Shown piece by piece: positions 49,581-52,281 of a DNA stretch of 64,000 nucleotides. Where the stretch lies: the NCBI RefSeq assembly GCF_002930155.1, contig NZ_PHND01000001.1:496001-560000 (forward strand), read 5' to 3'. Position numbers and translations under genes: made by a program. The stretch comes from Entomoplasma ellychniae (GTDB lineage Bacteria; Bacillota_I; Bacilli_A; Mycoplasmatales; Mycoplasmataceae). Within the stretch, counting starts at the first letter, position 1; each line of letters begins with the position of its first letter. The notes beneath the pieces were generated by a model that was not told the origin of the DNA, ran no database searches, and worked only from the letters and a program-made list of their open reading frames with translations.

Positions 49581-50108
49581 TTATTCCTCCAATATTTTTC
49601 TAATGCTATTAACATCTAAGTTCATTCAATTAAGTCATTTAAAGAGAGATTTTGAAGATAGCTCTAAATTAATTTCTAGTTTTTTAGATATCTTATTTCT
49701 ATTTGATTTTAAATAAATATCATTTTGTTTATACTCTATTCAAGAAATCGATTCGTTATTTACATTATATTCAATAAAGTTATTAAGAGCTTTCTTAATT
49801 TCTTCTTCGTTAGCTTCAGCAACTCCAATTTTTTTGTCTTGAGAAGTAAAGTTTTTTTTGTTTATAAAAGCATTATAAACGTTTTTATTTACTTCTTTAA
49901 TTATAGTTTCTCTTATTTTTTTACCTGGCCCATCAGGGTCAGTAAAAATAATAATTTCGTTGTTTTCACTTAGTTTTTTAATTGAATCTATTGTTTTTTG
50001 ATTTAATGCTAATCCATTTGTTTCAAGTGTTTGAAGTTTATCTCCGAATATTTTTTTAAGTTTTTGAGAATCAGTTTTACCCTCAACAACAACTATTTGA
50101 TTCAACAT
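49581..50108 (-). CDS. rnmV: Ribonuclease M5
   Basis: A 175-residue Toprim nuclease that matures the 5S rRNA. The Toprim domain has VVVEGKTDSQKL at residue 6 and IIIFTDPDGPGKKIR. The C-terminal tail, after a TGA-encoded Trp, supplies the rRNA-binding part. rnmV-rsmA linkage is conserved in Firmicutes. It is divergent from the MreB-like gene across 72 bases. Confidence 0.92.
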
Positions 50109-50180
50109 GTTTAACCCACCTATTATTAATTTAAAATTAATTATATATTATAATATAGTGAATAGAATAGAATGATAAGT
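50109..50180. promoter_or_regulatory. Divergent promoter region rnmV / MreB-like
   Basis: 72 bases of AT-rich DNA with a TATAAT near 50148-50153 on the plus strand and a mirrored AT-rich block for the minus strand. Promoters for both directions must lie here. Confidence 0.5.
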
Positions 50181-51146
50181 ATGAAAAATAAAAAAGTTGG
50201 TATAGTTTTAGAAGAAAATTATACAAGAATTATTTCATCAATTAGCGGTAAAGTTTATGACAACTCATCAGTTGTTTGTTGAAATAACTTAACAAGAGAA
50301 ATTGTTTTAGTTGGTAAAGATGTAGAAAATGCAATTGGTAGATTAGATGATCCGTTAGTTGTTATTAGGTTACTAAAAAATTATGCAGTTCAAGATTTTG
50401 AAGTTTTTAAAGCTTATTTAAAAATTCTTGTTGAGGATTTTTTTAATGTTTTTAAAAATGCTGAAGTTGTAGTTTCTTCTCCGAGTTCTGATTTAGATTT
50501 TATTAGAGATTTTATATATAACATTTTAAAAGTTGAGGGTGGGGCTTCATCTGTTGAGTTTGTATCAAAAACACTCTTATCAGCAATAGGTTCAAATGCT
50601 AATGTAAATGATGAGTATGGGGTTTTAATATTAGACATTGGATACTCATGTTCAAAAGTTGCATTAATCATTAACGGTAAAATTGAAAAAAGTGGGGTAA
50701 CAATTGCTGGGGAAAAAGAACTTGATGATAACATAATTCAATTTATAAAGGAACAATATCAATTAGTTATTAATGATGAAACAGTTGAAAAGATTAAGTG
50801 ATCAATTGGAACAATTATTAAATTAAGAGACGAATTAGAATTAAGCATTTTTGGTAGAGACTTAATAACAAATGATCGCAGAGTTATTGTTTGTGCTAGT
50901 GCTGAAATTAAAAAACTATTTATCAGATTATTTACAAATTATAAAACACTTATAACAAACGTTCTTGAATCGTCATCTCCAATTATTAGAAGTAGTGTTA
51001 TTAAAAATGGTTTATTTGTTTCTGGTGATTTAGCTGGAATTATTGGTGTTAAAGATTTCTTTGAAGATTTTTTTAATTTCCCAGTAACAATTTCTAAGAA
51101 AAAAGGTTATTCAGCAATTGAAGGTGCAATAAAATATAATAAATAA
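50181..51146 (+). CDS. MreB/actin-like protein with degenerate nucleotide site
   Basis: A 321-residue (324 if started at 50172) MreB homologue. Diagnostic stretches align along the whole length: SSVVCWNNLTREIVLVGKDV, AIGR, IRLLKNYAVQDFEV, SGVTIAGEKELDDNIIQFI, the IGTI helix, IFGRDLIT and the final glycine-rich block GLFVSGDLAGIIGV. The ATP-binding motifs are lost. Phosphate-1 DLGTANT is replaced by LEENYT (about 10-15), phosphate-2 DIGGGT is DIGYSC (152-157), and the catalytic Glu of IEEPFAAAIG is not kept (SKTLLSAIG, 129-137). It probably does not hydrolyse ATP. Plus-strand gene inside a minus-strand block, with its own terminator. Confidence 0.8.
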
Positions 51147-51173
51147 AAGACCTTCCATTTTGAAAGGTCTTTT
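51145..51173. terminator. Bidirectional terminator between MreB-like gene and dnaN
   Basis: Stem AAAAGACCTT/AAGGTCTTTT with a 9-base loop, ending both convergent genes. Confidence 0.85.
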
Positions 51174-52281
51174 ATGCTCTTGGTAAAATGATTTGTTTTA
51201 ATTTTGGTTCTTCTTCAGAAGAAATAACAGCCATTCTTGAAGGTAATGAAAATTTAATTTCTAAATCTTCACAATCAAATGTTTTAATTGCTTCTAAAAT
51301 AAATCTTGTATTAAATTTAACTTCTTCAATTTCTTCACCGCCAAACTCAAAATCATTAAAAGTTTCTTCATATTTAACTGAATCAACTGTTGTTTTAAGT
51401 GTTATCTCATTTTTTTTAATGTTTAAATTTATTGTGGGGTCTGATGATTCAAAAGGTAATTCAAATCTGTTTAGCAACTTTAATATTTTTTTTGTTTTGA
51501 CTTTTATTGATGTTCCAAAAACAGATGGGAAAGCAGACTCAACATCAGGGTAATTACCATCGACTAAAATTGATTGAAAAGTTTTGTTATCAAAAACAAA
51601 AGTTGTGTAGTTATCAAAAACAACAATTTTTAATTTTTTTACATTCTCAATCAACTTTATTAATTCTGTTAATGTTTTGTGGGGAATTATTATATTTATT
51701 TTTTCACCCTGAGTATTGATTGGTATTTTCTTTAAAGATATTTTAAATAAATCTGTTGCAGAAAAAACAATTGAATCTTCTTTTGTCTTTAAATTTAAAC
51801 CAGTTAGTACAGTTCTTTCTTTATAAGGGTTTATTGAATTAATTAATTGATTAATTGTGTTTTTAAACTCTACTGGTGAAAGTGTTATTTCAAGTCCGTT
51901 TTCAACAAAACCAAGTAATGGAAAGTCTTCTGGATCTAGTAAACCAATTTTTAAAGATGACTTTTCTGTAATTATTTCTAATTCACTTTCTTCAAAAACA
52001 CTCAATTTAATAAATTGATTTTCAAGTTTTCTCAAAGTATCAATTATAAATTTTGGCTTGACCAATATAGTTCCAGGGGTTATAATTTCAAGATCTGAAT
52101 TTTGTTTATATAATTCAACTTTAAAACTTGTTGAATTATTTGTCGAAATAATTGTTAGTTTATCTACACCAACTTCTATTAAAACACCCGTTGTAGCTGG
52201 AGACAAACTTTTTGGATCAATAATTTTACTAGCACTGTTAATACCATCTAAAAAAGCTTGTCTGTTAATTTTAATATTCAT
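51172..52281 (-). CDS. dnaN: DNA polymerase III beta sliding clamp
   Basis: A 369-residue clamp of the three-domain DnaN family. Typical stretches: FLDGINSASKIIDPKSLSP, the domain 2 NPYKERTVLTGLNL (usual form E-x-R-x-x-L-x-G-V), and ESAFPSVFG. The C-terminal KLKQIILPRA matches the family ending (MPMRL/LPVR type) that lines the peptide pocket. It follows dnaA by about 200 bases and is transcribed in the same direction. Confidence 0.96.
   Translation of the reverse strand: MNIKINRQAFLDGINSASKIIDPKSLSPATTGVLIEVGVDKLTIISTNNSTSFKVELYKQNSDLEIITPGTILVKPKFIIDTLRKLENQFIKLSVFEESELEIITEKSSLKIGLLDPEDFPLLGFVENGLEITLSPVEFKNTINQLINSINPYKERTVLTGLNLKTKEDSIVFSATDLFKISLKKIPINTQGEKINIIIPHKTLTELIKLIENVKKLKIVVFDNYTTFVFDNKTFQSILVDGNYPDVESAFPSVFGTSIKVKTKKILKLLNRFELPFESSDPTINLNIKKNEITLKTTVDSVKYEETFNDFEFGGEEIEEVKFNTRFILEAIKTFDCEDLEIKFSLPSRMAVISSEEEPKLKQIILPRA

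Follow-up and report, generated by a model that had tools for sequence, protein, structure and literature searches.

Background

The nearest described relatives of the protein treated here are the MreB proteins of Spiroplasma (SMreBs), MreB3 in particular. In S. citri the genes are given in the order mreB2, mreB3, a hypothetical gene, mreB4 and mreB5 in an excerpt of PMC9663586. Excerpts of two further papers report that Pi release by SMreB3 is under detection and that reconstituted swimming does not require SMreB3 (PMC13310574, PMC9597168), findings that fit the direction of the ATP-independent reading proposed below. In crystals of S. eriocheiris MreB3 (SpeMreB3) residues E285 and D289 touch the next subunit, and in the nucleotide-free form protofilaments persist in the crystal with only the IIA-IIB' contact kept (PMC9597168).

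For the non-helical relatives of Spiroplasma the record is sparse. Among open-licence papers that treat MreB together with Mesoplasma, Entomoplasma or Entomoplasmataceae, none was found that describes the present gene. Mollicutes have no peptidoglycan for MreB to steer. An excerpt of Lo et al. (2018) counts fib and mreB among the genes that the Mycoides-Entomoplasmataceae ancestor lost, and ties this loss to coccoid shape (PMC6117150). Mesoplasma florum, stated to lack pathogenic potential, serves as a near-minimal model cell and is credited with two 'cytoskeleton proteins', given there no names, in an excerpt of PMC7745072; a database annotation of the present gene in M. florum may exist. The data presented here contradict the loss account of Lo et al. 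(2018) for one mreB paralogue, which was kept. Round, wall-less insect bacteria that were thought to be free of MreB retain one copy under selection and without an ATP site, and this MreB probably does a different, ATP-independent job.

Identification and genomic context

The window analysed is a stretch of 64,000 nucleotides from Entomoplasma ellychniae. Its forward strand carries at 50181-51146 an ORF of 321 amino acids, read under genetic code 4 with two TGA codons as Trp, whose product was identified from the ORF, profile, structure and trees as an MreB (SMreB3) descendant without nucleotide motifs. An alternative in-frame ATG is present at 50172, and the alignment of orthologues favours the start at 50181. 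The Pfam MreB_Mbl profile (PF06723) matched residues 4-319 with an E value of 4.6e-53 (180.6 bits against a gathering score of 27), and the NCBIfam MreB models scored far under their curated cut-offs (149.5 of 515, 146.9 of 293 and 119.3 of 365.75 bits). The nearest solved relatives by sequence were SpeMreB3 (7e1c, E 1.6e-43), S. citri MreB5 and Thermotoga MreB.

An AlphaFold2 model with the 14 orthologues described below as input had a mean pLDDT of 84.9 and a pTM of 0.83. SpeMreB3, the top PDB match by sequence, was also the top match by fold (7e1g_A: Z 31.9, rmsd 3.3, 319 residues aligned, 27% identity; Foldseek: 7e1g_B, E 6.5e-29). The earlier note on this DNA had described an end-to-end alignment with MreB, which the extent of the Pfam match and the predicted fold bear out. 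MreB of the walled cells Thermotoga, Caulobacter and Geobacillus has the same full-length fold (Z 27-30), but the window protein lacks its DLGT, GGGT and catalytic Glu. An N-terminal amphipathic helix, credited to SMreB3 in an excerpt of a review, is absent from the window protein, which begins at the first strand. No second MreB, intact or otherwise, was found in the genome, where the second PF06723 match is DnaK; the same note had asked for this search. An identity of the ORF with FtsA was rejected, as the FtsA model gave an E value of 7.3e-6, far under the cut-off, and a distinct FtsA-like gene is present upstream of ftsZ.

The gene lies head-on between rnmV (RNase M5; 49581-50108, reverse strand), its constant divergent neighbour, and the convergent dnaN (51172-52281, reverse strand), as previously claimed. 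A promoter and terminator of its own had also been claimed. The terminator stands, as a hairpin at 51143-51175 between the gene and dnaN (one found against a mean of 0.2 in shuffled sequence), and it is common to dnaN as well. The promoter is weaker: promoter-like matches were not in excess (7 against 9.1 in shuffles), and a TATAAT-like box in the 72 bp divergent spacer common to the gene and rnmV (50109-50180) is kept in all six relatives of one genus whose gene is intact, as well as in the pseudogene described below. The divergent layout of mreB and rnmV about this spacer has been retained between Spiroplasma and Mesoplasma, suggesting a common promoter region.

Distribution and selection

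The sample comprised 60 genomes of the family, within which the mycoides cluster was not recognised. Sixteen of these, in genera g1, g2, g4 and g9, carry at most one MreB copy each. Fourteen of the 16, which are of Mesoplasma and Williamsoniiplasma types, have the gene intact (G000; G042, G021, G041, G003, G014 and G040; G016, G008, G073 and G023; G020, G074 and G012). In G043 it is a pseudogene with stops and several frameshifts, and in G001 it is absent and dnaN adjoins rnmV; this loss or decay in two of the 16 genomes indicates that the gene is dispensable in some. The remaining 42 genomes, taken to be Spiroplasma-like from the number of paralogues and the PDB matches, gave three to eight MreB matches each. 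The suggestion that a divergent MreB relative occurs in non-helical relatives of Spiroplasma is upheld by this distribution.

Genus g3 is represented by two genomes, which differ from each other: G013 has no MreB and G002 has a different MreB with its motifs intact. This protein (L067:3667-4797) and one from another family of the order (L027, G028) have DLGT intact and a phosphate-2 motif of the form Asp-x-Gly.

Ratios of dN/dS (Nei-Gojobori) for 15 pairs of one genus lay between 0.041 and 0.097, compared with 0.035-0.146 for dnaN and 0.085-0.263 for rnmV. The pair G016 and G008 gave 0.039 (dnaN 0.050, rnmV 0.121). Comparisons with the window genome gave 0.30-0.41 (dnaN similar, 0.35-0.41) at dS values of 0.84-1.33, near saturation; with dS this high beyond close groups, the ratio is informative only within them. 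The gene is under strong purifying selection and is not decaying. Random decay, the alternative against which selection was to be checked, is not the pattern observed, as the motif losses are common to the orthologues and stops or frameshifts occur in only one of the 16 clade genomes.

Loss of nucleotide-binding motifs

All four nucleotide sites of the window protein, encoded on the forward strand, are altered. The phosphate-1 site (50205-50222, residues 9-14) reads VLEENY in place of DLGTAN, with V9-L10-E11-E12 where other SMreBs have D-L-G-T. At the catalytic-Glu site (50562-50573, residues 128-131, VSKT) the Glu pair is replaced by S129-K130, position 130 being the catalytic column. The phosphate-2 site (50634-50657, residues 152-159) reads DIGYSCSK in place of DIGGGTTD, so that D152 and G154 remain and Y155, S156, C157 and S158 follow. 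The adenosine-motif site (51024-51038, residues 282-286) reads GDLAG in place of GGGAL, the GGG having become G282-D283-L284. The E203 and K206 of the A-E-x-x-K stretch are retained.

The residues D9, T12, E129, E130, G155, G156, T157, T158, G283 and G284 each occur in none of the 14 orthologues, whereas each is present in at least 95% of 40 SMreBs of other classes. The loss of phosphate-1, phosphate-2 and the catalytic Glu, first noticed in the window protein, is thus common to all 14 orthologues and is not a random change in one strain; orthologues with intact motifs were looked for, and none of the 14 keeps the key residues. Retained among the orthologues are K206 (14/14), E203 (12/14) and D152 (12/14), and the sequence of phosphate-2 varies between their genera.

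The reduced catalytic motif is a feature in which the orthologues and SMreB3 are alike, as is the gene cluster beside rnmV. The phosphate-1 Asp is present in seven of seven readable SMreB3 sequences (the row of an eighth, L073_G024_2050, was cut at its first ATG and does not cover the phosphate-1 site) but D9 in none of the orthologues; G154 is found in 8/8 SMreB3 sequences compared with 2/14 orthologues, and G156 in 8/8 compared with 0/14. The signature Asp of SMreB3 at the catalytic-Glu column is replaced in the orthologues by Arg (8), Lys (4) or Ser (2), and its signature Lys at the Thr column occurs in only four of the 14. Residues E178, K190, F247 and Y254 are invariant in all 14 orthologues, while at least 95% of the sequences of the other classes have a different residue at each position. 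From the alignment, these four positions suggest a new constraint.

Conservation of the pocket and of the longitudinal interface

Among the orthologues the pocket sites had a conservation of 0.697 compared with 0.684 elsewhere, a value equalled by 40% of random site sets. The corresponding values were 0.948 and 0.694 in the other SMreBs (none of 20,000 random sets) and 0.709 and 0.597 in SMreB3 (1% of random sets). A pocket no better conserved than the remainder of the protein argues for a vestigial pocket and not for a new ligand, and the use of another ligand, one of the roles offered in the earlier note, is accordingly disfavoured.

The domain IIA loop of the MreB longitudinal interface is encoded at 50982-50996 (forward strand, residues 268-272), where the Glu and Asp of SMreBs are replaced by I268 and S272. 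These two acids, equivalent to SpeMreB3 E285 and D289, occur in 48 of 48 SMreBs and in none of the 14 orthologues, which have Leu, Tyr, Ile, Phe or Gln at the first position and Gly or Ser at the second. As both acids are kept in 8/8 SMreB3 sequences, loss of catalysis came before loss of the interface, which took place only on the stem of the orthologue clade. The equivalent of SpeMreB3 K70 is Arg in 11 orthologues and Lys in three. The interface loop differs between orthologue genera, and domain IIA as a whole is well conserved, with 19 invariant of 68 sites. A simple role as a filament cap, which had been put forward, is disfavoured, since the interface acids are replaced and the genome holds no other MreB to cap.

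Phylogeny and history of the locus

The comparison with Spiroplasma MreBs that had been called for was made in three trees, in all of which the orthologues fell with SMreB3. The 14 orthologues formed one clade (100/100). In a tree of 35 of the 63 rows of the largest tree they were joined with SMreB3 and separated from SMreB1, 2, 4 and 5 with support of 100/100. Support was 99/98 in a 30-row tree with outgroup rows (8 of the 14 orthologues and 5 of 8 SMreB3 sequences), in which the three outgroup rows (among them L026, a fragment of 282 aa) were not on one side of a branch. The nearest sequences within SMreB3 (100/98) were those of what we take to be the Apis clade of Spiroplasma. Branches among close species are short; the stem of the orthologue clade is long (about 2 changes per site), so that its exact point of attachment is less secure. 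The 63-row tree contains several long branches, and the placement there of L067_G002_3667 near the SMreB5 class, on a branch of 2.96, is not trusted.

Two SMreB3 sequences, L079:433-1428 (G004) and L081:1574-2608 (G005), lie on very long branches and have partly eroded phosphate-1, phosphate-2 or GGG motifs. They may represent intermediate stages on the same route.

The gene is divergent from rnmV in 14/14 orthologue loci, with a spacer of 47-77 bp. The convergent dnaN is present in 12 of these, up to about 3 kb away; the DNA examined around the G012 and G074 loci did not show it. In Spiroplasma, the mreB cluster begins with a gene divergent from rnmV in 8/8 genomes examined, and the 63-row tree assigns these eight leading genes to a single class. 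In five of the eight (G006, G011, G024, G063 and G045) the next mreB is SMreB3; in G007 a duplicate comes before it, in G004 it is more distant, and in G017 no copy was found. If the other paralogues were lost, mreB3 would be left beside rnmV, which matches the layout observed.

Several mreB genes are present in L075 and L085 (G017 and G009; Spiroplasma-like g10), none of those examined being of the SMreB3 class. SMreB3 seems to have been lost independently in g10.

All eight Spiroplasma genome starts examined (G006, G011, G024, G063, G045, G017, G068 and G057) have dnaN followed by gyrB, and the rnmV block therefore came between these two genes in the present clade. The position of the gene near the origin is inherited or a by-product of the move of the rnmV block. 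The head-on, origin-proximal position is no hint of partition; it is the ancestral site of the mreB cluster, and a role in chromosome partition argued from proximity to the origin was dropped.

Proposed role and alternatives

The gene is all that survives of the Spiroplasma mreB cluster, an SMreB3 orthologue at the ancestral site beside rnmV, and we consider it rather probable that its product acts as an ATP-independent scaffold or adaptor and not as an ATP-cycling filament. The carriers are non-helical, Entomoplasmataceae-type bacteria. ATP catalysis was already gone in SMreB3; rapid change on the stem of the clade then removed the entire nucleotide pocket together with the acidic longitudinal contacts, and the protein has since come under strong purifying selection. 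Its actin fold, presumably neither binding nucleotide nor cycling ATP and forming no canonical protofilament, could keep its partners in set positions relative to one another, possibly on the membrane or together with FtsZ. Among the functions listed in the earlier note, scaffold or regulator is the best remaining reading of the sequence. Eukaryotic Arp-family proteins include nucleotide-independent actin folds that serve as structural subunits and not as ATP-cycling polymers. An Arp4-actin entry was among the structural matches of the model; the likeness is one of analogy only, with kinship no closer than the actin superfamily.

The main rival is a static filament, polymerising without nucleotide through remodelled longitudinal contacts in the manner of fibril or an intermediate filament. 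The behaviour of nucleotide-free SpeMreB3 in crystals, the presence of empty CcMreB filament entries of the PDB among the matches, the intact fold of the model and the conservation of domain IIA all agree with it, and filaments built on altered contacts are possible by this analogy; however, replacement of the E285 and D289 equivalents in 14/14 orthologues and a loop that varies between genera make it unlikely. Less probable again is a pseudo-actin with a rebuilt pocket that still binds nucleotide or another small ligand. E203, K206 and in most cases D152 are kept, so that weak or unusual binding of a nucleoside is possible, and the orthologues show fair conservation of the phosphate-1 hairpin (0.73), but the pocket as a set is no more conserved than the remainder and phosphate-2 differs between genera. 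A decaying leftover heading for loss would account for the pseudogene of G043 and the clean absence in G001. It is highly improbable and was rejected on dN/dS values as low as those of dnaN and on the open gene in 14 of 16 clade genomes, to which the lineage-specific invariant residues may be added.

To a broader formulation of the scaffold or adaptor reading we give slightly less than even weight: that the protein is a bacterial pseudo-actin which lost catalysis, then pocket and polymer interface, and became a conserved non-polymerising adaptor in a clade reported to be free of MreB, near-minimal Mesoplasma included. ATPase MreB, catalysis-poor SMreB3 and this nucleotide-motif-free descendant form a natural series in which the use of an actin fold without ATP can be asked about. 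If the pseudo-actin formulation is true, these cells, with their eroded FtsA, would be without a nucleotide-driven cytoskeleton protein of the actin family.

The FtsA-like protein of the same genome (L101:210-1514) is encoded immediately upstream of ftsZ, placed as are the FtsA-model matches in Spiroplasma. It had no Pfam match above cut-off, canonical actin phosphate motifs were not seen in it by eye, and this second actin-family protein of the cell may also be without nucleotide binding. The FtsA-like proteins of Spiroplasma-like g11 and g12 resemble it.
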